Source: Myxococcus stipitatus DSM 14675 (GTDB taxonomy: Bacteria; Myxococcota; Myxococcia; Myxococcales; Myxococcaceae). Taken from it: a stretch of DNA of 64,000 bases. Below, one piece after another: positions 1,704 through 33,581 of the stretch (the stretch's first letter is position 1; every line of letters starts with the position of its first letter). Where the stretch lies: NCBI RefSeq assembly GCF_000331735.1, contig NC_020126.1, positions 8,993,501 through 9,057,500 on the forward strand, given 5' to 3'. Below the pieces are notes generated by a model that had not been told where the DNA came from, made no database searches, and was given only the letters and a program-made list of their open reading frames with translations. Both the position numbers and the translations under genes were made by a program.

Positions 1704-3350
1704 ATGAGCAAGCGCGCGTTCAAAGTCCTCGCCGTCCTGACGTTCGTCCTGCTCGCCTTCGTGGGCACTGTCACCTTCTTCGGTGACAACCTCCGCAGGC
1801 TCTTCGGCTCAGGCACCGTGTGCCTCGCGGGTGATGTGGACCCGCATCCGGCCGCCATGGCTCTCGCCGCGAACACCCCACGTCCCGCGCCCGCCGACAG
1901 CCTCCAGCGCAAGTCCCTGCGCAACTTCGGCGCCTACGACGAGCCCGAGGCAGCCCCGCCTCCGCCCCCCGCCGGCCGCACCACCTCCAATCCCTACACC
2001 CTCACCTCCGACGACACCCTCTCCACCTTCGCCGTCGACGTGGACACCGCCTCCTACGCCCAGTTCCGCCGCTCCGTGAAGAGCGACCGCATCCCCGCCG
2101 ATGCCACCGTGCGCGTCGAGGAGTGGGTGAACTACTTCCGCTACCGCGTCCCCGAGCCCACCCCCGCCGAGGGCCCCTTCCACGTCGCCCTCGAGGCCGC
2201 CCCCTCCCCCTTCTCCCCGCGACAACACCTCCTCAAGGTCAGCCTCCAGGGCCGCCACCTCACCCAGGCCCAGCGCAAGCCCACGCACCTGGTCTTCCTC
2301 GTCGACATCAGCGGCTCCATGTCCGGCGATGACCGGCTGGGCCTCGCCAAGAAGTCCATGAAGCTGGCCGTCGCGGGCCTCAACCCCACCGACACCGTCG
2401 CGCTCACCACCTACGCCGGCGACGTGCGCACCGTCCTGGAGTCCACCCCCGTCAGCCAGCGCAAGGACATCGACGCCGCCATCGACGCCCTCGCCACCGG
2501 CGGCGGCACCAACATGGGCGATGGCCTGGAGCTCGCCTACCAACACGCCGTCCACAAGGCCGGCTCCAAGAACGTCGCCCGCGTCGTCGTCCTCACGGAC
2601 GGCGACACCAACCTCGGCCGCGACCAGAGCGCCGACGCCATGCTGGCGCGCATCGGCAAGTACGTGAAGGAAGGCGTCACCCTCTCCACCATCGGCTTCG
2701 GCATGGGCAACTACCGCGATGACCTCATGGAGCGTCTGGCCAACCGAGGCAACGGCAACTGCTACTACATCGACTCGGAGCGAGAGGCCCGCCGCGTCTT
2801 CCAGGAGCAGCTCGGCGGCACCATGGAAGTCATTGCCCAGGACGTCAAAATCCAGGTGGAGTTCGACAAGGTCGCGGTGAAGGGCTACCGCCTCCTCGGC
2901 TACGAGAACCGCGCCATCGCCGACAAGGACTTCCGCAAGGACTCCGTCGACGCGGGCGAGGTCGGCTCCGGCCACACCGTCACCGCCCTGTATGAGCTGG
3001 ACCTCACCGGCGAGGGCTCGCGCGTCGCCACCGTCCGCGTCCGCGCCAAGAAGCCCGGTGGCTCCGAGGCCGCCGAGCAGCCCTTCCACCTGGAGCGAAG
3101 CCAGGTGCGCGACTCCCTCTCCTCCGCCTCCGCGGACCTGCGCTTCGCCATCGCCGTCGCGGGCACCGCCGACCTCCTGCGCGGCACTACGCCCAACGAT
3201 GACCGCAGCTTCGCGCGCCTCCACGCCCTCGCCGCGGACGCCGTCGACGGACAGGAGGACCGCGAGGAGTTCCTCACGCTGCTCGGCAAGCTGCGCGAAT
3301 TGCTCGCGCCTCGCGGCGCCGTCCAGAGCGCCCAGCGCCCGCCGTACTGA
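1704..3350 (+). CDS. VWA domain-containing protein with DUF3520 (YfbK type), 548 aa
   Basis: The protein starts with a membrane segment (residues about 8-28, FKVLAVLTFVLLAFVGTV) that would anchor it in the inner membrane. A proline-rich linker follows, then the YfbK-type N-terminal domain (STFAVDVDTASYAQFRR, VRVEEWVNYF), then a VWA domain with an intact metal-ion site (DISGSMS; later TDGDTN), then DUF3520 (IQVEFDKVAVKGYRLLGYENR). This is the full family architecture. The family is linked to protein binding in the envelope, but substrates are unknown. The start at 1704 is chosen because GAGGG precedes it and the 20 codons before it are out of character. A paralogue lacking the VWA core lies at 20555-21952. 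A hairpin follows at 3425-3440. Confidence 0.9.
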   Translation: MSKRAFKVLAVLTFVLLAFVGTVTFFGDNLRRLFGSGTVCLAGDVDPHPAAMALAANTPRPAPADSLQRKSLRNFGAYDEPEAAPPPPPAGRTTSNPYTLTSDDTLSTFAVDVDTASYAQFRRSVKSDRIPADATVRVEEWVNYFRYRVPEPTPAEGPFHVALEAAPSPFSPRQHLLKVSLQGRHLTQAQRKPTHLVFLVDISGSMSGDDRLGLAKKSMKLAVAGLNPTDTVALTTYAGDVRTVLESTPVSQRKDIDAAIDALATGGGTNMGDGLELAYQHAVHKAGSKNVARVVVLTDGDTNLGRDQSADAMLARIGKYVKEGVTLSTIGFGMGNYRDDLMERLANRGNGNCYYIDSEREARRVFQEQLGGTMEVIAQDVKIQVEFDKVAVKGYRLLGYENRAIADKDFRKDSVDAGEVGSGHTVTALYELDLTGEGSRVATVRVRAKKPGGSEAAEQPFHLERSQVRDSLSSASADLRFAIAVAGTADLLRGTTPNDDRSFARLHALAADAVDGQEDREEFLTLLGKLRELLAPRGAVQSAQRPPY

Positions 3351-17172: not shown

Positions 17173-17982
17173 TCACGCTCCCGTCAGGGCGAACGCCGCC
17201 ATGCGAAGGACTCGCTCCAGCCCCGAGCGCTCCAGCACATCGTTGTGCCCTGCTCCGGGCACCGTCTCCACGATGGCGCGCGGGAAGCGCGTCCCCAGCC
17301 TGCGCCCCAGCTCCACGGGGATGAGCGTGTCTTCCTCGCCGTGGATGATGAGCACCGGCAGGCCGATGTCCGGCGCCTTCGCGCTCGAGTCGAACCGGTC
17401 CCTCACCAACAGCGACGCGGGAAGAAAGGGCAACATTTCCCCCGCGACATCCGCGATGGAGGTGTAGGGCGCCACCAACATGATGCGCGCGCCGTGTCCC
17501 CTTCGTGCCATCTCCACCGCCACACCCGTGCCCAGGCTGCGGCCACTGAGCACCGTGAGCTCCGGCGGCACTCCCTGCGCCTTCAACACCGCGAGCGCCG
17601 CCTCCGCGGCTTCGTAGATGCCCTCCTCCGTGGGATGCCCGGGTGACGCGCCGTATCCCGGGTACTCGACGGCCATGAAGCCCAGCCCGCTCTGGTTCAT
17701 CACCGCCCCCAGGTCGAGCTGGTTCAACAACTGCTCTCCATTCCCATGGAAATGCACCACCGTCGGCGCGCCCTTCGGCCCCGGCAGATGCAACAGGTCC
17801 ACGAAGGACTCACCCGCCAGTGGCAATCGACGGAAGCCCTCCGATGCGGGCAATGGCACCGGTGCCTTCGGCGCCGGATAGAGCAAGGAGCGCTGGAACA
17901 CGAACGCCACCAGGCACAGGCCGAGGTAGGCGATGGCGAATATGGAGAACAGGACGGTGAGCATGCGGCGGAGACGGGGCAT
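17173..17982 (-). CDS. Membrane-anchored alpha/beta hydrolase, 269 aa
   Basis: An N-terminal membrane segment (residues about 8-28) precedes an alpha/beta hydrolase of the BEM46/YtaP type. The oxyanion region is HFHGNGEQ, the nucleophile lies in SGRSLGTG, the acid near HGEEDTLIP and the His in PGAGHNDV. The substrate is unknown. It is the last gene of a - strand cluster, 39 bases after the response regulator, so it may be a target or effector of that two-component system. Confidence 0.88.
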   Translation of the reverse strand: MPRLRRMLTVLFSIFAIAYLGLCLVAFVFQRSLLYPAPKAPVPLPASEGFRRLPLAGESFVDLLHLPGPKGAPTVVHFHGNGEQLLNQLDLGAVMNQSGLGFMAVEYPGYGASPGHPTEEGIYEAAEAALAVLKAQGVPPELTVLSGRSLGTGVAVEMARRGHGARIMLVAPYTSIADVAGEMLPFLPASLLVRDRFDSSAKAPDIGLPVLIIHGEEDTLIPVELGRRLGTRFPRAIVETVPGAGHNDVLERSGLERVLRMAAFALTGA

Positions 17983-18021: not shown

Positions 18022-18726
18022 TCAGGGCGACTCAATCTCCATGCGGTAGCCCACACCGCGCACCGTCTGGATGGCGAAACGTGACGCGCTCGTCCACCCG
18101 AGCTTCTTCTTCAAGCTGGAGACGAAGTTGTCCACCGTGTGCGGGTCCACGACGACATCTCGCCCCCACACCGCATCCAGGATGTCGTCCCGGCGCAGCA
18201 CCCGCTCACGCTCCCGCACCAGGAACGCCAGCAGGTCGAACTCCGTGCGCGTCAGCTCCACCTGCGCCCCCTCGGGCGACTCCACCTTGCGGCGGTCCAG
18301 GTCCACGCGATAGCCCCCGAAGCGCAGCTGCTTCGCTGGAGCACTCGCCCCCGAGCGACGCACCAGCGCCCCCACCCGCGCGAGCAGCTCTCGCAGCCGG
18401 TAGGGCTTGCCCAGGTAGTCCTGCGCCCCCACCTCGAAGCCCCGCACGATGTCGTCCTCCAGCGTGCGCGCGGTGAGCATCAACACCGGCGAGGCATTGC
18501 CTTCGTCCCGCAGCGCCTTGCACAGCGAGTAGCCATCCCCGTCCGGCAGCATGACGTCCAGGATGATGAGCTGGAAGGTGCGACCGGCCAGGTGCTCGCG
18601 GGCCTCGCGCACCGTGGCGGCCTCCTCCACCGCGTAGCCTCCCTGGTGCTCCAGGCTGTCGCGCAGCGCGAGCCGCAGGTTCGGGTCGTCCTCCACGAGA
18701 AGAATCGTCGGCTGGGTCGAGGTCAT
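18022..18726 (-). CDS. OmpR-type response regulator, 234 aa
   Basis: The receiver domain (about residues 1-120) has all phospho-site residues: acidic pair in LVEDDPN, the phosphorylated Asp in ILDVMLPDGDG, and Lys in GKPYRLREL. A winged-helix DNA-binding domain of PhoB/OmpR type follows (LTRTEFDLLAFLV, DPHTVDNFVSSLKKKL, VRGVGYRME). The start overlaps the kinase stop by ATGA (18723-18726), so the pair is coupled. Targets are not known; the adjoining hydrolase and DUF3520 genes are candidates. Confidence 0.95.
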   Translation of the reverse strand: MTSTQPTILLVEDDPNLRLALRDSLEHQGGYAVEEAATVREAREHLAGRTFQLIILDVMLPDGDGYSLCKALRDEGNASPVLMLTARTLEDDIVRGFEVGAQDYLGKPYRLRELLARVGALVRRSGASAPAKQLRFGGYRVDLDRRKVESPEGAQVELTRTEFDLLAFLVRERERVLRRDDILDAVWGRDVVVDPHTVDNFVSSLKKKLGWTSASRFAIQTVRGVGYRMEIESP

Positions 18727-20546
18727 GTCGTCGCGGTCGGGGGAAAAGAGAGCTCGAAAGTCGTGCCCTCGGAACTCGAGGCCACCACACGAAGGTCGCC
18801 GCCGTGAAGGCGCATGATGCGGCGGCACAGCGCCAGGCCCAGGCCACTCCCTGGGACTTCACGCCCCTGGCCCTGCAAGCGGACGAACTCGCCGAAGACC
18901 CGCTCCCAGTCCTTCGGAGGGATGCCCACGCCGTTGTCCGAGAAGCGAACCCGCCCTCCCGGCAGCGCCTCCACGCGCAGGCGCACGGGGTTGCGCGTGT
19001 TGTACGCACAGGCATTGCGCGCGAGGTTGGACAGCAGCAGGCGCAAGAGGTGGGCATCGGCGCGCAGGGACAGCTCGCCCACCGCCACCTCCCACTCCAC
19101 GGGGACCTTGGACCAACCCTCCAAGTCCCTCCGCAGCAGCGACACCAGCTCCTCCAGCCGCACCGGCTCCAGCCGAGGCACCCATCGCCCTTTGTCGATG
19201 CGGTTGAACGACAGCAGGTTCTCCACCAGGAAACCCAGCCCATCCGCCTCACGGACGATGCGCGACGGGTAATCCCGCGCATCCGTCCCCTCCGCGAGCC
19301 GCCACTCCAGCGTCTCCGCCAGCAAGCGGATGGAGGCCAGCGGCGTGCGCAGCTCGTGCGACACCGTGGCCACGAAGTCACTCTTCAGTTCCAGGAAGCG
19401 GTACTTGCGATGCTGCGCGAGGAACGCGAGCACGGCGATGCCCAGCGCCAGCCCCGCGCACACCACCACCATGCCCGTCTTCAACCGGTAGCGTCGCTGC
19501 AGCGCCGTCTCCGCCTTCGCCCACTCCGGCGTCACCACCGACAGCGGCAGCGCGTCCAGCGAGAGCACGGCCGCGTCCCCCAACAACCCCACCGTCCCCT
19601 CCGCGTCCAGCAACCCGCGCTCACGCATCTCCTTCGTGAGCGACTCCAGGAGCGCCCCCGCGTCCACCGCCACACCGCGCACCTGATTGCCACCCCGCGG
19701 CTCCAGGTACCACCCCGCACGCACCAGTACCGGGCCGGGGAGCACCTCGGGCAGCGGCAGCGGACTTACGGCCAGCTCGCGAGCGCGCGACACGAAGTCG
19801 TCCACCGGCGCCCCCACCTTCGCGGAGAGCGCCGCCACCCGCTCGAGCAGGAACTGGAAGTCCCCGGGCGTGAAGCGCGAGCGCCTCGACAACAGCAGGC
19901 GCTGGAGTCCCTCCAGCCGCCCACCCTTCCCGTCCGCCAGGCCATCGCGCACCAGGGCCTGCATCAACTGCGGCACCGGGTCGCCTCGCTCCGCCAGCGC
20001 CTCCAACACCACGAGGAAGCCCGGCACATCCCGCGTCGAGGCCAGCACGTATTGCGAGCGGTGCTGGAGCAGCGCCATCAGCGCCACCGTGGACGCACGA
20101 CGGTCGCCTCGCGTGAGCGCCGTCTCCACCGCGCGCGTCCGCACGAGCCGCTCCGCCCACGGGTCCTCCTGGTCGTCCGCCACCTCCGTCCCCGCGCGCA
20201 GCCGCGCATAGCGCTCGCTGGCGGGAGCCATCTCCCCCGTGTCATGCAGCGCGAGCCGAGGCAGCACCTGCCCACCGCGCTCGCGCAGATAGAGCCCCGG
20301 AGCCGGAGCCAGCGGGTCCGTCACGGCCGCCTCGAGCGAGGGCTTCGCGGCCTCCAACCTGTCCCGCAGCGACTGCGCCAGCGACGCCCGCGCGTATTGC
20401 TCCAGCGCCTCGCGCCGTGACTCCAGCGAGCGCCGGGCATCGTCACGCTCGGTGGCGAAGATGCGATGGAGAGAGCCCAGGCCCCACGCCAGGCCGATGA
20501 GGCCCAGGAGGAGCGCGACGAGCATGGGCAGCAACCGGCGGAGCAT
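18723..20546 (-). CDS. Sensor histidine kinase, 607 aa
   Basis: Two membrane segments (about residues 5-25 and 352-372) bracket a large sensor region of about 325 residues outside the cytoplasm, with no recognised domain and a mostly helical, charged character. The kinase core follows: phospho-acceptor His in SHELRTPLASIRL (about 397), N-box NLARNACAYN, G1 box DNGVGIP and G2 box GSGLGLAL. It partners the overlapping response regulator. The start is 8 bases after the stop of the VWA-less DUF3520 gene, so the membrane protein upstream may deliver the signal or be part of the sensor (inference). Confidence 0.93.
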   Translation of the reverse strand: MLRRLLPMLVALLLGLIGLAWGLGSLHRIFATERDDARRSLESRREALEQYARASLAQSLRDRLEAAKPSLEAAVTDPLAPAPGLYLRERGGQVLPRLALHDTGEMAPASERYARLRAGTEVADDQEDPWAERLVRTRAVETALTRGDRRASTVALMALLQHRSQYVLASTRDVPGFLVVLEALAERGDPVPQLMQALVRDGLADGKGGRLEGLQRLLLSRRSRFTPGDFQFLLERVAALSAKVGAPVDDFVSRARELAVSPLPLPEVLPGPVLVRAGWYLEPRGGNQVRGVAVDAGALLESLTKEMRERGLLDAEGTVGLLGDAAVLSLDALPLSVVTPEWAKAETALQRRYRLKTGMVVVCAGLALGIAVLAFLAQHRKYRFLELKSDFVATVSHELRTPLASIRLLAETLEWRLAEGTDARDYPSRIVREADGLGFLVENLLSFNRIDKGRWVPRLEPVRLEELVSLLRRDLEGWSKVPVEWEVAVGELSLRADAHLLRLLLSNLARNACAYNTRNPVRLRVEALPGGRVRFSDNGVGIPPKDWERVFGEFVRLQGQGREVPGSGLGLALCRRIMRLHGGDLRVVASSSEGTTFELSFPPTATT

Positions 20547-20554
20547 GAGCGCGG

Positions 20555-21952
20555 TTACTTTCCGGGGACAGGCGACGCGTCGGGGTCCAGGTTGGACAAG
20601 GAGCCCTCGCGGTCCTTGCGCTGGTCCAGCGACCCGGCCTTCTTGATGAGCGCCCCCAGTTCCACCACGTCGGGACGGCCCGTCAGCGGCGCGCCGATGT
20701 CCTGCCACAGCGCATGCAGCCGCGCCCAGTCGAGCGACCGCGTCCAGTGAGAACCCCGCAGCTTCTCCGCGAAGGCCGCGGCCACGAAGGCCAGGCGCGA
20801 CTCCGGGGCCGCTCGCGCGCTCGACGAGCGCAGAGTGCTCGACGGCAGGTACTTGTACGCGCGGCGCCAGCTCGTGTTCTCGCCCACCTCGTAGAGCACA
20901 CGCGCGGTGGCGAAGGAGATGCCAGGGCCAATCAGCTTCACTTCGTAGATGGCCGTCACGGACGCACCCGCCTTCATCGGCACGGCCTCCGGCTCCGCGT
21001 CATCATCGAGCGGCTCCGGCGTGGCGGACGTCTGCTCGTACCCCACCAGCCGATAGCGGGCGACCACCCTCCGGTCGAACTCCACCTGCATGCCCACATC
21101 GCTGAAGTCCTCGAGGGAGTGCAGGCTCACTCGCACGAAGTGGTAGCCCTTGCGGCTGGGCGAGGGATATCCCTCCACGTGGAGCTTGAACGGGCCCACG
21201 AGCTCCCCGGGCTCGCCCAGGTCGAAGCTGTTGACGAAGTCCTCCACTCGCACGGACTCCTCGGGAGGCAGCGTGTCGCGAGCCAGGTAGCCCTTCGTCA
21301 GCACGTACGACGCGGTGCTGACCCGCAGCGGATACGTGGAGATGCGCTCCTCCTCCGTGTCGATGGTCGGATTGACGCCGAAGCCTCGCGGGTCCAAGTC
21401 CCTCAGCAGCTTGCTCCCAGGAGCCAGCATGAGGGAGTTCGCAACACTGGGAGAGGGTGACGACTCCTGCGGCAACACCCACGGCGGAGCCCTGTCTCGA
21501 ATGTCTCCACTCCGAGCCGACGCCATCCACGCGACGCCATCCGACTCCCAGCGCTGCGGTGGAGCCAATGGCGCCAGTGGCGAGAACGCGTGCGCCGGCG
21601 CGGTGCTCACCGCCCCCGTCCCCACCGACACCAGCTCCACCTTCAGGGCGAGCGCCTGCCCGGCCTCCACTCGCACGTCCGTGCGGATGACCGACTGGAA
21701 GGACTCCTTTTCGAAGCGCAGCGTGTAGCGGCCCGCGGGAAGCGCGGTGAGGGCGAAGTGCCCTCGCGCATCCGTCACCGCGCCGCGCGGCACCGGGAGC
21801 ACCGGCGACTGAGCGGAGACCTTCACCCCCTCCAGCGGCTGCTGCCCGGGTGCCTGGAGGACGGCGCCCGACACGGAACCCTCTTGTGCCCACGCCGAGG
21901 AGGCGAGGCACAGGAGGACTCCGCACAGGTATCGCAGGAAAGCGGTCTTCAT
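20555..21952 (-). CDS. Secreted DUF3520 protein lacking its VWA domain, 465 aa
   Basis: Signal peptide (LCGVLLCLASSAWAQ), then a carboxypeptidase-regulatory-like beta domain (about residues 23-105), a low-complexity linker, and then the YfbK-type N-terminal domain (STYPLRVSTASYVLTKGYL, VRVEDFVNSF, GPFKLHVEGYPSP). Where the paralogue at 1704 enters its VWA domain, this protein jumps straight to DUF3520 (MQVEFDRRVVARYRLVGYEQ) and its C-terminal helix (SRLAFVAAAFAEKLRG). About 190 residues with the metal site are absent, yet the frame and both flanks are intact. It heads the operon with the sensor kinase. It probably keeps a binding role at the cell envelope; the ligand is unknown. Confidence 0.85.
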   Translation of the reverse strand: MKTAFLRYLCGVLLCLASSAWAQEGSVSGAVLQAPGQQPLEGVKVSAQSPVLPVPRGAVTDARGHFALTALPAGRYTLRFEKESFQSVIRTDVRVEAGQALALKVELVSVGTGAVSTAPAHAFSPLAPLAPPQRWESDGVAWMASARSGDIRDRAPPWVLPQESSPSPSVANSLMLAPGSKLLRDLDPRGFGVNPTIDTEEERISTYPLRVSTASYVLTKGYLARDTLPPEESVRVEDFVNSFDLGEPGELVGPFKLHVEGYPSPSRKGYHFVRVSLHSLEDFSDVGMQVEFDRRVVARYRLVGYEQTSATPEPLDDDAEPEAVPMKAGASVTAIYEVKLIGPGISFATARVLYEVGENTSWRRAYKYLPSSTLRSSSARAAPESRLAFVAAAFAEKLRGSHWTRSLDWARLHALWQDIGAPLTGRPDVVELGALIKKAGSLDQRKDREGSLSNLDPDASPVPGK

Positions 21953-22045: not shown

Positions 22046-22717
22046 TCATGGGGTCTTCGTCGAGGCGAAGGGCACATCCAGCACCGGCCGCGTCTTGGCG
22101 TCCGGCAGGTCGTAGTGCCACCACTCCATGCGGTTGGGGACGAAGCCCGCCCCCTCCATCGCCTCGCGGAGAATCTCGCGGTGCTTGCGCGAGGCCTCGG
22201 TGCCTCCCGCGTAGCCGTGGTGCGCCTCGGGCGTGAAGGTGTCGAAGGGCGTGGGCATCTCGACCTCCTTCCCCTCCAGCGTCACCAGCGTCAGGTCCAC
22301 CGCGCCGCCCCGGTTGTGGTTGGAGCCCTTGCGAGGGTCCGCCACGTAGCCGGGCACGGGCATGATCTTCCACATCTCCCACTGCACCGCGCGCGGGCGA
22401 TAGCAGTCGTAGACCTTCAGCCGGTAGCCCTGGGGCCGCAGCACCTCCGCCGCCGCCTTCAGCTTGCTCGCGGACTCCGGCAGCAGCAGGCAGCGCGCCG
22501 AGTCCGGGTACACCTTCTTCTTCAAGAAGTTGTCCGCCGTCGCGTAGCGGAGGTCCAGCGCCAGGTCCTCGACCACGGAGGTCGCATCGACCAGCGGCGC
22601 GATATCCCCCGCCTTCCGCGCCTTCGCGGGCTTGCTCTTCGCGGTGCTCGGAGCCTCGGCCAGCGCCGAGGTCCCCATGCACAGCCCCAGCACCCAGACC
22701 CACCGCCGCGCGCTCAT
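22046..22717 (-). CDS. ddpX: D-alanyl-D-alanine dipeptidase, M15D family, 223 aa
   Basis: A zinc dipeptidase that cleaves D-Ala-D-Ala, as VanX and DdpX do. After a signal peptide (residues 1-21) the metal site is complete: [13 protein letters not shown] (His and Asp ligands, about residues 132-143) and the catalytic Glu plus third His in EWWHYD (about 197-201). [13 protein letters not shown]-like and [14 protein letters not shown] stretches fit the family. Export suggests a wall-recycling or nutritional role rather than vancomycin resistance, and no vanHA genes are present. The start overlaps the queC stop by ATGA (22714-22717). Confidence 0.92.
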
Positions 22718-23412
22718 CCTCGGGCCCCCGCCGCGTAGTGCGTCGGGTCCGGGACGCCCGCTTCCTCGAAGCCCTTCTTGCGCAGCATGCAGCTGTCGCA
22801 GCGCCCGCAGGCACCGCCCTGCTCATCCGGGTCGTAGCAGGAGTGCGTCATGCCGTAGTCCACGCCCAGACGCGTGCCCTCGCGGATGATGTCCGCCTTC
22901 GACATCCCCGACAGCGGCGCGTGCACGGTGAAGCGCGCACCCTCCGCGCCCGCCTTCGTCGCCAGGTTCGCCATCGCCTCGAACGAGCGGATGAACTCCG
23001 GCCGGCAGTCCGGATAGCCGCTGTAGTCCACCGCGTTGACGCCGATGTAGAGGTCCGTGGCCTCCACCACCTCCGCCAGGCCCAGGGCCAGCGAGAGGAA
23101 CAGCGCGTTGCGCGCGGGCACGTACGTCACGGGGACACCGTGGCTCATCTCATCCGCCGGGCGGTCCTTGGGCACGTCGATGTCCGCGGTGAGCGCCGAG
23201 CCGCCAATCTGCCGCAGGTCGATGCCCACCACGCGGAAGTCCTTCACGCCCAGGGCCCGAGCGACTTCACGCGCCTTCTCCAGCTCCACCGAGTGACGCT
23301 GGCCATAGGACACCGCCAGGCACACCGGCTCGAAGCCCTGGGCCTTCGCCATGGCCACACACGTCGTCGAGTCCAGGCCACCCGAGAACAACACCACCGC
23401 TCGCTTCGTCAT
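22714..23412 (-). CDS. queC: 7-cyano-7-deazaguanine synthase, 232 aa
   Basis: Makes preQ0 from carboxydeazaguanine with ATP and ammonia, on the way to queuosine in tRNA. The pyrophosphatase loop SGGLDSTTC is at residues about 9-17, a PARNALFLS motif near 111, and the zinc site is built by Cys residues in SCYDP and GACGRCDSC near the end. Length is normal. No other queuosine gene (queD, queE, folE) is in the window. The start is fixed by a one-base overlap with the lipoprotein stop upstream; its own stop overlaps ddpX. Confidence 0.96.
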
Positions 23413-24032: not shown

Positions 24033-27000
24033 CTACCCGGCGTCGAGCACGGAAAGGGCCACGGCCCGGAAGGCGCCTCCGCGAGCGAGCACCGCGCCCA
24101 CATCCACCCGCGCCGGGTCACTCCCACGCACCTCGGCGTCCAGCCGCGCCAGGACCCGCCCCGCCGCGAGCGACGCGGGCACCGCCTGGAAGGCCGCCAC
24201 CGCGGCGGTCTCGAAACCGGACACCTCACCAGGACGCGAGAGCTTCACGCCGGACTCACCCAGCGCCAGGGCCAGCGCGCACAGGTAGCCCAGCTCCACC
24301 GCGCCGAAGCACGAGAGGGCACCGGCGCCCAGCACCAGGTCCTCGGCGCTGGCCAGGTATGCCTCGACGCCACCGACGGGGTCCACGTTCACCCGAAGCC
24401 CGCTCGCCCCCAGCGACGAGAGCAACGGGCGCAGCGCGGCGAACAGTCGCGGGAAGCGCTCGGCCGTCACCTGCAGCGCGTTGGCGGGGAGCGGATGGTG
24501 GAAACCCACGGGTACCGGCAGCGGCGAGAGGTGAGCCGCCATCGCCGGCGCCGTGCTGGACGAGAGCGCGGCGCCCACGCCATCCGCGCGCTCGGCGGAC
24601 TCCACGCGCCCGAGGAGCCGCAGCGCCTCCGCGAAGAGCGTCCAGCCATCCACGTCCAGCGGCGAAGCGCGCAGCAGCTCCGGCCACACCCTCACGGCGA
24701 ACGGCGCGCCCTCGGGCACGGGAGAGAGGCGCTCGCAGGACAGGCGGAGTCCCTCCGTGGACAGGACCCCCGCGTCGAAGAGCCGCTCGGCGAGCCTCGC
24801 CGCGGGAGACACGAGCTGCGCGTCCAGGTAGCCGCGCAGGATGGACTCCAGCACCACCGGCTCGTCGGTGAGCCGCTCGCGCAGGGCCAGGGCCTCGCCG
24901 GTGAGGCCACGCTGCTCCGCCAATCTCGCGCGGCGGGCCAGGCGCTCCTCGGTCTCCGGCAGCGCCTCCAACTGCGCGACGGCGTCGGCCACCTGGCCCA
25001 GCGCCTCGTAGGCATCCGCCAGTCGCTCGCGATGGGGGGACGCGGCGTCCGGGCCTTCCTCCACCGTCAGCCGCTCGGCGAGCGACACGAACTCGGCGGG
25101 CTGCCGCAGCTCGTCCACCAGCGCCAGCAGGTTGCGCAGCGCGGGCATGCAGGAGGCATCCGCGGCCAGCGCGCGCTCGAAGGCCGCGCGGGCCTCTTCC
25201 GGCTTGTCCACCGGGCTGAGCAGCAGCTCGCCCTGCTCCAGGTGCAGCGTGGCGAGGACTCGCGAGTCCTCCTCCTCGTCGATGAGGCTCGACAGCGTGC
25301 GCACGGCGGCCTCGAAGCGGCCCAGCCCCAGCTCCAGGGTGTGACGCTCGCGCAGCAACGACGCGCGGCGCGACGTCCACCCTTCCGCCGCCATGGCCAG
25401 GGCTTCCACGCGCGCCGCATCCGGCAGGGCGCGGACGCGCTGGAGCACGGCCTCCGCGAGCCCCTCGGGGAGCTTCTCGAGCCCCGGCAGCAGCAGCGTG
25501 AGCCGCGCGGCGAAGGAGGCGTCGGAGGACAGCTCGTCCAGGGCGCGCAGTCGCGGGAGCAGCGAGGCCCCCGAGGAGCGAAGCACCTCGTCGCGCAGCG
25601 CCACGGCGAACGCCAGGTCCCGTGGGGCGGACAGGGCCGCGAGCTCCAACAGGCCCTCCGCGTCCTCCTCCGCGCGCAGTCCATCCGCGAGCGCGGAGGC
25701 ATGGGCGGTGTCCGCGTCCGGGTTGGCCGCCAGCGCCCACAGCGCCTCGCGAGTGCGCGCGGCATCCCCGGCCTGCGCGGCCATGGCCAGCGCGTCCGTC
25801 AGCTCACCCGCGGCCATCGCGGGCACGAAGCCCACTTCGAGCGCCCGCGTGAAGGCGCCCAGCCGGCCGAAGCGCTCCGCCAGCTCCGAGGGAGCGAGCA
25901 TGTCCGGCGCCTCGGTGGCGATGCGCTCGATGACCTCCAGCGCGTCGCCGGGGGCACCCGCCTTCTCCCAGAGGTCGGCCGCCTCCAGCAGCAGCGGCGG
26001 ACGCTCCTCCGGCGAGGCCAGCCGCGCCGCATGCAGCAGCGACTGCGCGGCCCGGGGCGCGTCACCCGAGGCGCGGTACAGGTGGGCGACCCGCAGCGAG
26101 GCGTCCACATCCGGCTCGGTCGCCGCCGCGGCCTTCGCCGCCTTCAGCGCGTCCGGCAGACGGCCCGCGCTCTCGAAGTCCTTCGCGGCGGACAGCAGGA
26201 GCACCAGCCGCTCGCGGCCCGTGCTCAGCTCCGCGCGGGCCACCCGGACCTCGGCGCGGCGTGAGGGCCCGTCGCTCGACAGCTTCTCCAGCTCCTCGAG
26301 CGCGACGGCGTAGCCGGCCCCCGAGGTGCCGCGCTCCACCACTGCCTCCAGCACCTCGCGAGCCCGCGAGGACTGGTCCGCCTCGCGCAGCAGCGCGGCC
26401 AGCTCCAGCCGCGACAGGGCCGCCTCGTCCGCATCCTCCAGACGCGGCACCAACTGCTCCAGCGCGTCGCGCAGCCGCGCGGTCTCCTTCCGCTCGCGCA
26501 GGCCCGTCACCAGGGCCTTGAGCGCGGTGACGTCCTCGGGCGCGGCCTCCGCCGCGCGCTGCGTGAGGTCCCAGGCCGCGTCCAGGTCGGCGAGCGACTC
26601 CGCGGCCACCGTCGCGGCGGCCAAGAGCAGCTCCGCGGCGCGAGAGCCTCCCGCGGCCTCCGCGCCGGACTCGTACACCGCCAGCAGGTCTCCATGGCGG
26701 CCCATCGCACGCAGGCCCGCCACCGCGCGGTCGATGACCGAGGCATCCGCGGGCCGCAGCTTCGCCAACGGCAAGAGCGCGTCGATGGCGTCCTTCGGGT
26801 CGTCGAAGAGGTCCGCCGCGCGGCGGTACAGCACCTCCGCCGTCGCCGAGTCCTCGGCCCTGCGCGCGAGCTGCAACGAAGCGCGGTACAGGCCCGGCGC
26901 GTTGCCCGTGCGCGAGTGGACCTCCGCCAGCAGCGACAGCGCCTCGCGTCCGCGCTCGCTGTCCGGCTCCAGCGCCACCACCGACTCGAAGGCGTCCGCC

Positions 27001-30000
27001 GCGTCGTGGTACGCGTTCGCGCCCAGCGAGGCATGGCCCAGTCGCAGCCACGTCCGCGTGCGCACGGCCAGGGGCAGCGCGTCTCCACCGGCCGACAGCA
27101 GGCGCCGGTCATACGGGCGCGCGGCGGCGGGGCCTCCACTCCGGGCGGCCAGCTCCGCTCGCGCGGACAGCGCCTCCACGTCCTGGCCCGCGTGAGACAG
27201 GTACGCGTCGAAGGCCTCCGCGGCCAGCAGCGCCTCGCCCGCGTCGAGCAGGCGGGTGGCTCGCTCACGCCACAGCGGCAGCGCGTCCTCGGGCGGCAGG
27301 GCGGCGGCGCGCTGGGCCAGCAGCTCCGACAACCGGCGCACGTCTCCGGCCGCGCGCTCGCGCACGCGCTCGAAGGCCTCCGCGCTCGCGGGGCTCAGCT
27401 CGAAGGCGCGGTCCTCGCACAGCAGCGCGCGCTCCCGGGCACCAGCGGCGAGGAAGGCTCGCGCGGCCGCCAGGTAGCTGTCCGCCGCGTCCACGTCCTT
27501 CTGGCGCTGGGCCCGGCGCAGCATCAGCTCCGCCAGCGACTGCGGGTCCCCCGTCTCCTCCAGGAAGTCCCGGTGACGGGTGAAGACGGGCTCGCGGAAG
27601 GGGTCGGCCTCCAGCAGCACCGCGTCGAACTCGGCGGCGTCCGCGTGCCGCTTCACCTCGTGCAGCAGCTCCGCGGCCTGCGCGGTGAGGTCCAGGTCGT
27701 CGGGCCGTGCGGAGCGCGCGGCGATGAAGGCCGCTGCCGCGGCGTCCGGACGTCCCGCCCTGTCGCGATAGAGTACGGCCGCGCGCTGCAACAGCTCCGC
27801 GCGACGCTCGTTGTCCGCCTCGCTCTCGGCACACTCCTCGTACCAGGCGGCCAGCTCCGCGAGACGGCCGTCGCGCTCCAGCAGCCGGGCCAGCAGCGCT
27901 TCGGCCTCGTCGAGCGAGCGGTCCTGTCGCAGCGCTCCGCGCAGGAAGCGCTCCGCCTCCTCCACGTCGGAGAGCACGCCCAGGTGCAGCTTCGCCAGCC
28001 GCAGCCGCAGCGAGGCCGCCTCCTTCGCGTCCTCCAGCAGCGGCAGCGCGCGCTCCAGCCAGAGCGCCTCCGCCTCGGCGTCGTCCCGGCGCTCGGCGAG
28101 CGCGGCACCCAACCTCGCGGTGCCCAGGTCCTCCGCCAACGAGAACGCCCGGTCCAGCGCGCTCTCCGCCGCTGGCAGGTCCAGCTTCACGTCGCGCAGC
28201 AGCTCCGCGCGCCGACGCTCGCACGCGGCGGCCTCCGGGGCGCGGCCGCGCGACTGCAACAGGTCTCGCGCGTCCGCCAGCGCCCGCAGCGCATCGTCCG
28301 CGCGTCCGGTGTTCTCCGCGAGCCGGGCCTCTTCCTCGTAGGCGGCCAGCGTCCCGGTCACGTCGCCCATCTGGAGGCTCAGCGCGGACACCTGGCGCAG
28401 CTCCGTGAGCAGCTCCAGCGAGCGTCCCGTCTCGCGGTAGAGCGCCGCGAGCTGGAGGCGCAGCGGCAGCGGGGACGACGCCATCTCCGCGGCGCGGGTC
28501 AGCAGCAAGGCCGCGACACCCGCGTCGGCGAGCGAGGCCCGCGCCTTCTCCGCGAGCACCACCAGCCGTCGCACCGTGTCGTCGGAAGGCGCCAGTGCAC
28601 GCGCGTGGGTGACCCGCACCTCGAACGCGCCGCGCGGGTCGTCCTTCTCCAGCAGCGCGGAGAGCCGCTGCACGGCGGGCTCGCTCAGCGGACGCTCGAC
28701 GAGCAGCTTCCGGTACGCGCTCACCGCGCGCTTCGTCTCGCCCGCGCTCTCCGCCAGGTCGCCCAGCCGCAGCCACGTCGACTCGGCCGCGTCGGGCGTC
28801 GCCGCGAAGTCCACCGTCGCGGCCAGCGTCTCCTGGAGCGGGAGCGCTTCCACCACCGCGCCTCGCAGGTAGAGCAGCTCGGCCAGCGAGGCCAGCTCCT
28901 CGCCCCGCGCGGGAACCAGGGCGTGCGCCTTGCGCGCCAGCTTCAGCGCGCGGTCCAGGTCCTGAGCGTCACGCGCATGCGCCGCGCCCTCGCGCAGCAG
29001 CGCGGCGGCCTCGGTCGTCCCGGCGCTCTCGGCGGCGGTCTCCAAGAGGGCCGCGGCCTCACGCAGCTCGCCGCGTCCCGCCACCAGCGACACCAACTGG
29101 CGCCGCGCCTGCGCATCGCCCGGGGCGAAGCGCAGGGCCTGCCGCAGCGCGGCCTCGGCGGGAGCGGGCTGGCCCAGCCGCTCCAGATAGAGCGACGCCA
29201 GCTCCGAGTACATCCGCGCGGACTCCGCGGCGCCCGCGTGAGGGGCCTCCGCGGAGAGCAGCTCCGCCAACGCGGCCCAGTCCTCCAGCGAGCGCAGGGC
29301 GCGCTGCAAGGACGCGGTGGCCTTCGCATGACGAGGCGCCAGCGCCAGCGCGGCCTCCAGGCTCTCGCGCACCTCCGCGAGCTTCCCGGCCGCCTCCAGC
29401 AACGAAGCCCGAGCGAGCAGCGCCTCCACGCGGCGGGGCGTGGGGCCCTGGCGCGCGGCCTCGGCGAGCGCGGCGGCCTCCTCGTCCGGACGCTCATCGC
29501 GACGCGCGAGGTCCGCCAGGGCGAAGAACGCATCGCAGCGCTCCGTCTCCGACGGCTCCAAGCCCACGGCCACGGTCAGCGCCTCGCGCGCCAGCTCTCG
29601 CGAGTCCTTCTCCGTCAGCACGCCGGCCAGCGCGAGCAGCCGCTCCCGGGCCCGCGTCGATAGCCGGGCATCCGCGCCCACCGCGCGACGCCACACCTCC
29701 AGCTCACCCGCGTCGTCCTGCGACTCGCGCGCCAGCTCCGCCAGCGCGAGCAGCAGCGGCGCGGGACGACGCGCCAGGCTCGCGGCCTCGGAGAAGTCAT
29801 CGCGCGCGGCCGGAGTCCGACCGGAGGCGCGGTGCAGCACGGCGCGACGCGCGAGCAACTCCGCGCGGTCCTCCCCCGTCGAGGACGCCACGAGCGCGCC
29901 CAGCAGCTCCAGACGCTCGGCCTCCTCGTCGGCGGAGCCCGTGCCCGGAGGCGGCAGCAGGTCGAGCAGCGCTTGCGCCGCCCAGGTGTCGTGCGGCTCC

Positions 30001-33000
30001 TCCAGCCTCAAGCTGCGCAGCGAGTCCACCGCCGCGCCCGCGCGTCCCAGGCCCAGCGACAGCTCCGCCAGCTCGCGCCGCGCCGCGCGCCGAGGCTCCC
30101 CCGACAGCCGGGGCCACAGCTCCACCAGCAGGTCCGCCAGGGCCTCGCGTGCGCCCGCCTTGCGGTGCAGGTTGGCCAGCTCCACGCGGGCGTCCAGGTC
30201 CTCCGGGACGCGGATGCAGTACTCGGCCAGCAGTCGGCGCGCGGAGTCCGTCCGGCCCGCGCGCACGGCGGCGCTCGCGGCCTTGCGCGTGAGCGCCACC
30301 CGCTCCGCTTCCCGAGGCGCGTCCGCGTCCACGGGAGGAAGCGCCAGCACCGCCTCGAAGTCCTCCAGCGCCGCGCGGGCATCCGTCGGCAGGCGCAGCT
30401 CACCGCGCCGCTGCCGCGCGGGCGCGAAGGTCGCATCGCGCTCCAGCGACTCGGCGAGGAACACCTCCTCGCGGCTGGTGCCCGCCGCCAACAACGACGC
30501 GCGGAAGAGCAGCTTCGCGCCAGCGCGGGCCTCGGGCACGAGCGCGGCCCGGCGCGCGTACAGCCTCGCGGCCTCCAGCTTCTCGCCCCGCTCCAGCTCC
30601 AGCTCGGCCAGCGACTCCAACACCTCGGCGGCCAGCGGCCCCTGGGGACTCGCCTCCAGCGCGGCCGACAATCGCAGCAGCGCCGCGGACTTCTCGCCCC
30701 GCTCCAGGAGCGCACGGGCGCTCTGGAGGAACAGGGGCGCGGCCTCCTCGGCGCGCTCCGCGCCCATCAGCGCCTGCGCGCGGCCCGCCCACAGCTCGGC
30801 CAGGGCCTGCGTCTCGCCCGCCTCGGTGTAGAGCGACTCCAGCCGCGAGGCCAGCGCATCGTCGAGGCGGCGAAGCGGCAGCGCCTGCGCATACGCGGCG
30901 ATGGCGCCCTCGCGGTCTCCGAGCATCTCGCACGCGCGACCCAGCCGGGCGCGCACGTCCGCCAGCTTCTCCGGCGCGGCGGTGCGAGGCAGCGTCGACA
31001 GCAGCGACTCCAGCGCCTTGCGCGCGTGCTCCGGGCGCTCGCAGCGCAGGGACAGGTCCGCCAGGTCCAGCAGCACCGCGGAGTCCGGCGCCATCCGCGC
31101 CGCCTTCTCCAGCGCCACCAGCGCGTCACCCACCCGACCCAGACGGGCCTCCAACACGCCCGCCAATTCGCGCAGCGCCGCCGCCGCGAGGCGCTTGTCG
31201 CCCTGCGCCTCCGCCACCCGCGCGCGCTCCTCCAGCGCGACGGCGAGCCCGGCCATGTCCGCGCGCTTGCGCTGCAAGGCACACAGCTCGCCCAACGCGG
31301 GCAGGTCATCCGGCTCCGCGCGCAGCACCTCCTGGAGGGAGTGCACCGCCAGGTCCAGGTCGAAGGCCAGGTCGCGCGCGGCCACCGCGAGGCGGCGGTA
31401 CTTCTGCGCGCGCTCCTTCACGTCCTGCGCCAGCCGCGCCAGCGCGGACAGGCACCGCGTCAGCAGCGGACCGGCACGCCGAGCCTCGGCCAGGGCGAGG
31501 AGGGACTCCAGCGCGGGCCGATGGTCCGCGTCCGCCTCCAGCGCGAGCAGCAACAGCCGCTCCGCCTTCTCCGGCTGCTGGAGCCGTCCACGGAACAGCT
31601 CTCCCGCCTCCGCCCAGGACGCGGCCCTCTTGGCGGGCTCCTCCTGGAGCGCGGCGGACTTCTCCAGCGCATCGGCCAGCTCCAGCGCCTTCCCGGTGAT
31701 GCGGAAGTACGGAACCAGCTCCTCCAACGCCACCGCGTCGCGCGGGTCCAGCGCCAGCGCGGACTCCAGGTGCTCACGCGCCCGAGCCGGGTCCCCCAAC
31801 CGCGAGCGGTACAGCCGAGCCAGGGCGTGGTGGCTGGAGTGCGCGGCGCGGCGAATCCCTTCCGAGCGCGGAGCGGGCCCCGCCAGCTCCAGCGCCTGCT
31901 GGTAGCCCGCGAGCGCCTCCTGCAACCGGCCCAGTCCCTCCGCCACACGCGCGGCGGCGAACAGCGGCTCGGGCTCACCCGGCAGCAGCGACACCGCCTC
32001 GCGGTAGCGAAGCAGCGCGTTCTCCGCCTGCTTCAGGCCTTCTTCCCACACGCGGCCGGCCATCAGGTCGGCGTGGCCCACCCGGTCCAGCTCGTGCCGG
32101 GCCATCGACACTTCGCGCAGGCGGTCCAACGCCTTCAGCGCGCGGAGGTGCTCACCGCCGCGATGGCACAGCTCGCCCAGGAGCAGCAGCGCATCCGGCT
32201 GGTCCGGCGACAACCGCAGCGCCGCCTCGCAGTGTAGGCGCGCTCCCGCGATGTCGTCCTCCGTCTGCGCGCACAGCCGCGCCAGATGCACATGCGCATC
32301 CGCCGCCTCATGCGGGTCCCTCGCGAGCGCCGCCAACCGGCGATAGGCGCGCACCGCCCCCGCCCTGTCGCGCGCCTGGTCCGACGCACGCGCCAGCGCC
32401 TTCAGCGAAGGCAGGTGGTCCGGCTTGAGTCCCAGCAGCTCGTGCAGCGCCTTCACCGCCACTTGCGGCGCGGTGTCGCGAGAGCAGCGCGCGGCGGCCT
32501 CGGCGGAGAAGAACGCCGCGGCCTCCTCCGACGTGCGACGCGCCAGCGCGCACAGCGCCAGGTAGCGCTCCGCCGCGCGGGCACCCTCGCCGCGACGCTC
32601 ACGCACCACCGCCTCGCCCCACAGCGCCGCGGGGCTCCGGTCGCGCCTGCGCTGGAGCGTGGCGGCCACATCCAACGCCAGCTCATGCGCCTGCGGGTCC
32701 GCCACCAGCAGCGACAACAGCCGCTCCGCGGCGAACGGATGCGCGTCCTGCGCGTCCCCCGCCTGGAGGTACAGCCGCCGAGCCTCCGCCAGCCTGCCTT
32801 GAGCGACGAGCGACTCCGCGTCCGCGAAGGCCCGCGCGCCCTCCAACGTCAGCAGCAGCTCCTCATCCGGAGGCGACGGCGGAGGCAGGCCTCCCGCGGC
32901 GAAGCGCAGACGGAGCCCCGTGCTGGAGACCTCCGCCGCGGACAGGCGCGCGGTGTCCAGCGACGGCATCTTGTAGCCCCGGCTCACCGCCGCGAGCTGA

Positions 33001-33581
33001 CACAGCGCCGGCAGCACGCGCGTGCTGAAGCCCGTGGCACCGCGGGCCTCCACATCCGGAACCAGCGCCAGTGCACCCACCGCGGCGGACAGCAGCCCCG
33101 GCACCTGCACCGACGGCGTGGAGGAAAACCCGTAGAGCCGCACGTCGTACAAGTAGACGGCGAGCTTCTCGCCATCCGCGTCGAAGGCGACCTTGAACGT
33201 GAAGGGCGTGCGCTCCGGCGCGGGCAGGCGGCCCTGTCCCTCCAGGTAGCCCGGACGGAAGTGCAGCCGCACCTCCTCGAGCCCCGCCAGACGTCCCGCC
33301 AGCTCCGCCACCCGCCGTGTCACCAGGTCCGCGTCGACGGACAGCTCCAGGAAACCGAAGTGCAGCTTCTTGCGCTGATAACGCGTAGCCCCCGCACTGA
33401 CGTTGAAGGGGAAGCTGACGTCCGGAATCTGGAGCGCGAAGTCGGAGATGCGCAGCCCCGGCATCACCTCCAGCGCGGGGAACCCCACGAAGGCCCTGCG
33501 GTCCAGCAGGCGCAGCTCGGGCGCGGCGGCGCGCGCATCGGGCGCCACGGTGGGCTTGGGGGAGTCACTCTCGTTGGCCAT
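24033..33581 (-). CDS. Giant TPR-repeat protein, 3182 aa
   Basis: One uninterrupted frame of 9.5 kb. Residues about 1-240 form a beta-rich domain that I do not recognise (FVGFPALEVMPGLRISDFALQIPD). From about 250 to 2900 it is an almost unbroken alpha-solenoid of tetratricopeptide repeats of about 34 residues, with the usual W/L-G-Y-A-P positions (ALLLLGELCHRGGEHLRALKAL; AGYQQALEL). The last about 250 residues are non-repetitive with some hydrophobic helices (GAVELGYLCALALALG). No signal peptide or clear membrane anchor is visible, so it is probably cytoplasmic. TPR solenoids assemble complexes; the partner is unknown. Divergent from the kinase at 33627, only 45 bases away. Confidence 0.92.
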   Translation of the reverse strand: MANESDSPKPTVAPDARAAAPELRLLDRRAFVGFPALEVMPGLRISDFALQIPDVSFPFNVSAGATRYQRKKLHFGFLELSVDADLVTRRVAELAGRLAGLEEVRLHFRPGYLEGQGRLPAPERTPFTFKVAFDADGEKLAVYLYDVRLYGFSSTPSVQVPGLLSAAVGALALVPDVEARGATGFSTRVLPALCQLAAVSRGYKMPSLDTARLSAAEVSSTGLRLRFAAGGLPPPSPPDEELLLTLEGARAFADAESLVAQGRLAEARRLYLQAGDAQDAHPFAAERLLSLLVADPQAHELALDVAATLQRRRDRSPAALWGEAVVRERRGEGARAAERYLALCALARRTSEEAAAFFSAEAAARCSRDTAPQVAVKALHELLGLKPDHLPSLKALARASDQARDRAGAVRAYRRLAALARDPHEAADAHVHLARLCAQTEDDIAGARLHCEAALRLSPDQPDALLLLGELCHRGGEHLRALKALDRLREVSMARHELDRVGHADLMAGRVWEEGLKQAENALLRYREAVSLLPGEPEPLFAAARVAEGLGRLQEALAGYQQALELAGPAPRSEGIRRAAHSSHHALARLYRSRLGDPARAREHLESALALDPRDAVALEELVPYFRITGKALELADALEKSAALQEEPAKRAASWAEAGELFRGRLQQPEKAERLLLLALEADADHRPALESLLALAEARRAGPLLTRCLSALARLAQDVKERAQKYRRLAVAARDLAFDLDLAVHSLQEVLRAEPDDLPALGELCALQRKRADMAGLAVALEERARVAEAQGDKRLAAAALRELAGVLEARLGRVGDALVALEKAARMAPDSAVLLDLADLSLRCERPEHARKALESLLSTLPRTAAPEKLADVRARLGRACEMLGDREGAIAAYAQALPLRRLDDALASRLESLYTEAGETQALAELWAGRAQALMGAERAEEAAPLFLQSARALLERGEKSAALLRLSAALEASPQGPLAAEVLESLAELELERGEKLEAARLYARRAALVPEARAGAKLLFRASLLAAGTSREEVFLAESLERDATFAPARQRRGELRLPTDARAALEDFEAVLALPPVDADAPREAERVALTRKAASAAVRAGRTDSARRLLAEYCIRVPEDLDARVELANLHRKAGAREALADLLVELWPRLSGEPRRAARRELAELSLGLGRAGAAVDSLRSLRLEEPHDTWAAQALLDLLPPPGTGSADEEAERLELLGALVASSTGEDRAELLARRAVLHRASGRTPAARDDFSEAASLARRPAPLLLALAELARESQDDAGELEVWRRAVGADARLSTRARERLLALAGVLTEKDSRELAREALTVAVGLEPSETERCDAFFALADLARRDERPDEEAAALAEAARQGPTPRRVEALLARASLLEAAGKLAEVRESLEAALALAPRHAKATASLQRALRSLEDWAALAELLSAEAPHAGAAESARMYSELASLYLERLGQPAPAEAALRQALRFAPGDAQARRQLVSLVAGRGELREAAALLETAAESAGTTEAAALLREGAAHARDAQDLDRALKLARKAHALVPARGEELASLAELLYLRGAVVEALPLQETLAATVDFAATPDAAESTWLRLGDLAESAGETKRAVSAYRKLLVERPLSEPAVQRLSALLEKDDPRGAFEVRVTHARALAPSDDTVRRLVVLAEKARASLADAGVAALLLTRAAEMASSPLPLRLQLAALYRETGRSLELLTELRQVSALSLQMGDVTGTLAAYEEEARLAENTGRADDALRALADARDLLQSRGRAPEAAACERRRAELLRDVKLDLPAAESALDRAFSLAEDLGTARLGAALAERRDDAEAEALWLERALPLLEDAKEAASLRLRLAKLHLGVLSDVEEAERFLRGALRQDRSLDEAEALLARLLERDGRLAELAAWYEECAESEADNERRAELLQRAAVLYRDRAGRPDAAAAAFIAARSARPDDLDLTAQAAELLHEVKRHADAAEFDAVLLEADPFREPVFTRHRDFLEETGDPQSLAELMLRRAQRQKDVDAADSYLAAARAFLAAGARERALLCEDRAFELSPASAEAFERVRERAAGDVRRLSELLAQRAAALPPEDALPLWRERATRLLDAGEALLAAEAFDAYLSHAGQDVEALSARAELAARSGGPAAARPYDRRLLSAGGDALPLAVRTRTWLRLGHASLGANAYHDAADAFESVVALEPDSERGREALSLLAEVHSRTGNAPGLYRASLQLARRAEDSATAEVLYRRAADLFDDPKDAIDALLPLAKLRPADASVIDRAVAGLRAMGRHGDLLAVYESGAEAAGGSRAAELLLAAATVAAESLADLDAAWDLTQRAAEAAPEDVTALKALVTGLRERKETARLRDALEQLVPRLEDADEAALSRLELAALLREADQSSRAREVLEAVVERGTSGAGYAVALEELEKLSSDGPSRRAEVRVARAELSTGRERLVLLLSAAKDFESAGRLPDALKAAKAAAATEPDVDASLRVAHLYRASGDAPRAAQSLLHAARLASPEERPPLLLEAADLWEKAGAPGDALEVIERIATEAPDMLAPSELAERFGRLGAFTRALEVGFVPAMAAGELTDALAMAAQAGDAARTREALWALAANPDADTAHASALADGLRAEEDAEGLLELAALSAPRDLAFAVALRDEVLRSSGASLLPRLRALDELSSDASFAARLTLLLPGLEKLPEGLAEAVLQRVRALPDAARVEALAMAAEGWTSRRASLLRERHTLELGLGRFEAAVRTLSSLIDEEEDSRVLATLHLEQGELLLSPVDKPEEARAAFERALAADASCMPALRNLLALVDELRQPAEFVSLAERLTVEEGPDAASPHRERLADAYEALGQVADAVAQLEALPETEERLARRARLAEQRGLTGEALALRERLTDEPVVLESILRGYLDAQLVSPAARLAERLFDAGVLSTEGLRLSCERLSPVPEGAPFAVRVWPELLRASPLDVDGWTLFAEALRLLGRVESAERADGVGAALSSSTAPAMAAHLSPLPVPVGFHHPLPANALQVTAERFPRLFAALRPLLSSLGASGLRVNVDPVGGVEAYLASAEDLVLGAGALSCFGAVELGYLCALALALGESGVKLSRPGEVSGFETAAVAAFQAVPASLAAGRVLARLDAEVRGSDPARVDVGAVLARGGAFRAVALSVLDAG

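Follow-up and report, generated by a model that had tools for sequence, protein, structure and literature searches.

How can a protein lose a domain that is built into the middle of its fold, and what might the remaining protein do when its gene lies directly ahead of a sensor kinase? The question is raised by a gene of Myxococcus stipitatus DSM 14675, found in a window of 64,000 nucleotides that is the whole stretch of DNA analysed here (contig NC_020126.1, positions 8,993,501 to 9,057,500). YfbK/DUF3520-type VWA proteins are common in myxobacteria, and we know of no function assigned to them in Pfam. The first-pass annotation of the window described this gene as a member of the family that has lost exactly its VWA domain, together with the metal site, that has acquired a new domain at its front, and that stands first in an operon with a histidine kinase, a response regulator and a hydrolase.

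Domain organization of the short protein

The short gene is intact, with its ATG at 21952 and its stop at 20555 on the minus strand. The gene and the parts of its product are as follows (positions of the window).

20555..21952, minus strand: VWA-less YfbK-type protein, 465 aa (open reading frame and translation, Pfam, alignment of 21 orthologues)
21887..21952, minus strand: putative Sec-type signal peptide, residues about 1-22 (ending ...SSAWA, before QEG), without lipobox (read by eye, and N-terminal helix of the model)
21632..21877, minus strand: CarboxypepD_reg (transthyretin-like) domain, residues 26-107 (Pfam 60.7 bits, cut-off 32.3)
21134..21376, minus strand: PF12450, the YfbK N-terminal half of the beta-sandwich, residues 193-273 (Pfam 44.9 bits, cut-off 25; model strands 255-263 and 270-279)
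21098..21118, minus strand: junction, residues 279-285, site of the missing 190-aa VWA domain (alignments; in the model a tight turn between strands 270-279 and 286-292)
20921..21103, minus strand: PF12034 (YfbK_C/DUF3520), the rest of the beta-sandwich, residues 284-344 by Pfam (51.7 bits, cut-off 25; model strands 286-370)
20627..20806, minus strand: C-terminal helical part, residues 383-442, with the motif AEKLRGSxW (model; conserved columns)

From its putative signal sequence the short protein appears to be secreted. No VWA family matches it in Pfam at E<=1, and the DxSxS metal site is absent. The comparator from which the first-pass annotation had deduced the loss is a full-length protein of the same window.

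1704..3350, plus strand: full-length VWA paralogue (Pfam; tree)

In this paralogue PF12450 and PF12034 flank a PF00092 VWA domain (3e-21 in Pfam). BLASTP aligns residues 194-278 of the short protein with 96-182 of the paralogue, and residues 285-438 with 380-529, so that 197 residues of the paralogue stand opposite six of the short protein. The paralogue is a distant comparator, with 34-37% identity by BLASTP; in the same genome, a single contig of 10,350,586 bases, a full-length relative that is closer lies at 3.08 Mb (41-46% identity, front domain included). When the short proteins are aligned with 14 kinase-linked and nine unlinked full-length proteins, the missing block measures 190 residues in nearly all rows (190-193) and lies between KARE and DVxxQ. 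The exact loss between conserved flanks is borne out, given that the 190 residues are absent at the join in 21 orthologues and that both PF12450 and PF12034 score above their cut-offs, and the metal site has gone with the block. Retention of a VWA-like fold in the linker is ruled out, as the join consists of six residues only, which in the model form a turn between two strands. In six full-length relatives we find no repeats that could have guided the deletion, identical runs spaced 570 bases apart being no longer than 5 bases; this absence says little because the loss is old.

The claim of an added front domain does not hold. The CarboxypepD_reg domain, which in the model resembles the TTR domain of human carboxypeptidase D (5aq0; Z 14.4, rmsd 1.2, 81 residues aligned), is also carried by full-length relatives, kinase-linked as well as unlinked, and its gain along with the VWA loss is thereby ruled out. 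Its presence in the kinase-linked full-length protein of Archangium (L092) makes it older than the VWA loss; likewise, the full-length relative at 3.08 Mb has it, and therefore it was not added when the VWA domain was lost. Distant kinase-linked proteins (e.g. L076, L077, L118, L121) have shorter front parts, with lipobox-like signals at their start by inspection.

The short form is genus-wide

Among 96 genomes searched in the family, all 27 that belong to the genus, which named records identify as Myxococcus including Pyxidicoccus, have the short orthologue, and a profile search across the order (145 genomes) again gives 27 of 27. In the other genera (118 genomes of the order) none of the matches listed spans the join, and the profile match breaks at 287/288; the weakest matches fall outside this listing. 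The first-pass annotation had held that homologues bearing a VWA domain in the same gene would point to a local deletion in this strain. Such homologues do exist at the locus, yet the loss is not local to the strain: it is genus-wide and old. That a local deletion, a frameshift or an assembly artefact in the M. stipitatus strain explains the missing domain has a practically negligible probability; we found no supporting point for it, and the short form in 27 of 27 genomes, complete and draft, rules it out.

Predicted structures of the short and full-length forms

Structure prediction, suggested by the first-pass annotation as a check, was run with AlphaFold on the short protein and on the full-length Archangium orthologue. 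The short model has a mean pLDDT of 77.5, with 242 residues at >=90 and values of about 90 or more around the join; the mean of the full-length model is 85.2. Outside the VWA domain the order of strands and helices is nearly the same in the two models. In the full-length protein a strand (263-272) leads into the VWA domain (283-462), which is followed by a second strand (464-475), whereas in the short protein strand 270-279 passes through a turn into strand 286-292. The beta-sandwich is predicted to close intact without the inserted domain, and the cut would be tolerated because the VWA domain is inserted between two strands of a sandwich that closes without it. Three confident helices of the short model lie within residues 383-442.

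The list of fold matches for the whole short model is filled by the front domain, so that absence of a family from it does not count against that family. The full-length model aligns with 4fx5 over 341 residues (Z 22.2) and with ArnB (8s05) over 330 residues (Z 21.5), and both alignments cover residues 244-629 of the orthologue, comprising sandwich, VWA domain and helical part. Strand order and these alignments place the full-length orthologue in the split-sandwich architecture with inserted VWA domain, the core of ArnB and Sec23/24. In the ArnA-ArnB structure the eight-stranded sandwich of ArnB is split by its vWA domain, and the zinc finger of ArnA sits on the sandwich and C-terminal domains of ArnB; E. 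coli YfbK is counted among the proteins of ArnB-type architecture (PMC12852372). By analogy with that work, the sandwich rather than the VWA domain could be the docking part.

Descent and selection

In a maximum-likelihood tree of 286 host-domain columns, from which the VWA columns were excluded, the 21 short proteins form one clade (100/100) inside the kinase-linked full-length group; this nesting marks their descent from VWA-bearing members of the YfbK family. The window paralogue 1704-3350 lies far outside the kinase-linked group. Several unlinked full-length paralogues cluster with kinase-linked genes from Corallococcus and Citreicoccus, and close full-length paralogues occur elsewhere in the own genome and in most genomes of the genus. 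Both observations fit a reading in which the VWA function is supplied in trans, the short protein pairing with an unlinked full-length paralogue of the same genome. We consider such pairing quite improbable, as the unlinked copies keep a sandwich of their own and lie in varied neighbourhoods without this kinase.

The stem of the short clade is long, with 0.54 changes per column against 0.08 for the corresponding stem of the kinase tree. For nine pairs, dN/dS is 0.12-0.38 in the host domain, 0.24-0.53 in the whole short gene and 0.08-0.14 in the kinase. These ratios indicate purifying selection on the short gene, which looks functional but less constrained than the adjoining kinase. The long stem and the dN/dS above that of the kinase could also be those of a remnant, a gene that has been decaying since the domain loss and is kept chiefly as a translational lead-in to the kinase. 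Decay of this kind is very improbable: the frame is open in 27 of 27 genomes, residues are invariant throughout the sandwich and the helical part among the short orthologues, and the host-domain dN/dS stays within the low range given above.

The motif AEKLRGSxW is conserved in both short and full forms. Positions 308-330 are conserved in the full forms and changed in the short ones, and our guess is that this loop faces the VWA domain. Residues special to the kinase-linked proteins, as compared with their nearest unlinked paralogues, were considered as a docking site and set aside, since a single column, H271, stood out.

The kinase-regulator cassette

The genes on either side of the short gene are the following.

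18723..20546, minus strand: histidine kinase of 607 aa, in which a large unnamed region (about residues 25-345) precedes HisKA (Pfam HisKA, HATPase_c)
18022..18726, minus strand: OmpR/PhoB-type response regulator (Pfam Response_reg, Trans_reg_C), in ATGA overlap with the kinase
17173..17982, minus strand: alpha/beta hydrolase (Pfam), starting 39 bases after the regulator
22046..22717, minus strand: M15 D-Ala-D-Ala dipeptidase (Pfam, NCBIfam PRK10178 above cut-off; synteny)
22714..23412, minus strand: gene that we take, by recognition of its sequence, to be QueC-like (open reading frame; synteny), in ATGA overlap with the M15 gene (22714-22717)

The position directly before a kinase-regulator pair, as first described, is confirmed: the gap from the short gene to the kinase is eight bases, kinase and regulator overlap, and throughout the genus (27 of 27 genomes) 10-16 bp separate the end of the short gene from the kinase match. 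The hydrolase is not borne out as a conserved member of the unit, given that by synteny it adjoins the regulator only in the closest relatives of the window. The M15 gene lies 93 bases upstream of the short gene, a position conserved in the genus, and the pair formed by the QueC-like gene and the dipeptidase keeps its place ahead of the short gene in the whole genus. In Citreicoccus and a relative (L109, L072) the M15 and QueC genes are also upstream, as in Myxococcus. In some genomes of the genus one more gene lies between the M15 and short genes (L055 7182-7517, L056 8456-8785, L057 7461-7748, L050 10508-11020); its product has a signal peptide, a stretch resembling CarboxypepD_reg and a linker similar to the one in the short protein, so that the gene is apparently a tandem copy of the front part only.

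Synteny further reveals that in sister genera a full-length VWA protein stands ahead of the orthologous kinase-regulator pairs. Among the named loci, this arrangement recurs in Archangium, Corallococcus, Citreicoccus, Hyalangium, Paraliomyxa, Nannocystaceae, Polyangiaceae, Nitrospinota and an Acidobacteriota MAG. Because the short form is genus-wide and a full VWA protein stands before the orthologous pair in other lineages, the comparison indicates that an old cassette of VWA protein, kinase and regulator lost the VWA domain once, on the Myxococcus/Pyxidicoccus stem.

The own genome has, at 4042022-4043119 (L176), a second kinase-regulator pair that shares the unnamed sensor-domain family, and relatives have it too (L177-L186). 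This pair coexists with the first in nearly all Myxococcaceae genomes and has no YfbK-type neighbour, and in the kinase tree its clade sits beside the Myxococcaceae kinase-linked clade. Therefore, either the partner was lost there or it is not essential, and the kinase family does not strictly need it. In one genome (G001, locus L187) the gene just upstream of the kinase encodes a 215-aa CarboxypepD_reg-like protein without the YfbK halves. It might be a further reduction of the short form; a common origin is not established, because its tail resembles a TonB-receptor plug.

Does the short protein act on the kinase or under its control? The conserved adjacency makes a sensor or ligand-binding partner of the kinase plausible, and doubt about this role arises mainly from the second kinase, which has the same sensor-domain family and no such neighbour. 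The short protein may instead be the output of the pathway, an envelope protein under the control of its own kinase-regulator pair that does not touch the kinase, the adjacency being due to autoregulation and translational coupling. Adjacency alone fits this, as do the partnerless paralogous kinase and the faster evolution of the short protein relative to the kinase. Yet the 10-16 bp spacing throughout the genus and the placement directly upstream of the kinase in several phyla are more than a mere target needs, and we regard the output reading as rather unlikely.

VWA decay in distant kinase-linked relatives

Three distant kinase-linked relatives (L134, L135, L138) keep a PF12034 match, which in L135 scores 22.8, just below the cut-off of 25; L135 and L138 also match PF12450, and all three are without a VWA match in Pfam. 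The stretch between the two halves is shortened in them and devoid of the metal-site motif. The N-terminal half of L134 fell outside the Pfam query because its frame was read from an internal start, and the host profile matches both halves. Judging from these rows, the VWA domain has here decayed and was not excised. Elsewhere the metal-site motif is changed, to DTSAA in L128, and L127 has DASAT. On the kinase tree the decayed rows occupy two places. The number of independent decay events is uncertain, because several of these branches are long and the starred support forces only one. These rows are metagenome bins.

Discussion

We propose that three genes made up the ancestral cassette, encoding a secreted protein with the ArnB/YfbK architecture, a sensor kinase whose predicted membrane segments enclose a large region, and an OmpR-type regulator. 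The inserted VWA domain was cut out whole on the Myxococcus/Pyxidicoccus stem, and in the model its two carrier strands have closed into a short turn. The short protein would reside in the periplasm and bind or tune the kinase through its sandwich and helical part, for which the ArnA zinc finger, docked on the sandwich and C-terminal parts of ArnB, may serve as a model. The VWA domain would be a ligand module, dependent on metal and dispensable for the kinase pathway, and the Myxococcus version would work without a metal-site ligand, perhaps with the CarboxypepD_reg domain binding one. A periplasmic partner role of this kind is the mechanism that we favour; location, binding and signal are inferred in it, and the exact excision, its single origin in Myxococcus, the gene order with its conserved adjacency, the purifying selection and the modelled closure of the sandwich are shown. 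Taken as a whole, from the excision on the stem to a periplasmic partner acting through sandwich and helical part, the proposal stands in our judgement evenly balanced between right and wrong. A wider generalization is possible, albeit somewhat doubtful: a sensory cassette spread across phyla, in which the split beta-sandwich would be the kinase-docking subunit and the VWA domain an optional ligand head that would have disappeared repeatedly, through exact excision in Myxococcus and through decay in other kinase-linked lineages.

The domain families are already known, whereas for the kinase-linked cassette and the VWA excision we found no match in a limited search of open-access papers, which also gave no paper on DUF3520. 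Like the YfbK family (PF12450, VWA and PF12034/DUF3520; E. coli YfbK), the short protein has both sandwich halves above the Pfam cut-offs and, by the tree, descends from a VWA-bearing member; unlike that family, it has neither VWA domain nor metal site, and it has a front CarboxypepD_reg domain and kinase-regulator neighbours. The full-length orthologue shares sandwich, inserted VWA domain and helical part with the ArnB/Sec23-Sec24 core (8s05, 5a8j, 4fx5), while the Myxococcus form differs from ArnB in being without the inserted domain, apparently secreted, and linked to a histidine kinase rather than to ArnA/ArnC. The pilus-tip VWA proteins PilY1 and ComC are likewise proteins of the bacterial surface, with a VWA region that differs among lineages. 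In ComC, apparent gain and loss of the Pfam VWA domain is sequence divergence with the fold kept (PMC10374093), and PilY1 paralogues of M. xanthus are regulated by the two-component system HsfBA (PMC9109919). The short protein belongs to another family, and in its gene the VWA DNA is truly gone, because the linker has six residues.

The conserved kinase-regulator neighbour gives YfbK/DUF3520-type proteins a testable role, and the natural series of intact VWA domain, changed metal site, decayed VWA domain and clean excision allows one to ask which part carries the signal. The locus also offers a clear natural example in which an inserted domain has been removed whole and the host fold has apparently survived, in an architecture common to archaeal ArnB and eukaryotic Sec23/24.

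Some minor observations concern the records and the surroundings of the locus. A search for a phage relative found none. Two BNCN01 records titled Comamonas sp. KCTC 72670 (L090, L117) have Myxococcus-type genes at the locus, and their title is probably wrong. On the minus strand of the window, positions 24033-33581 hold an open frame of 3182 aa with TPR-like repeats by inspection.
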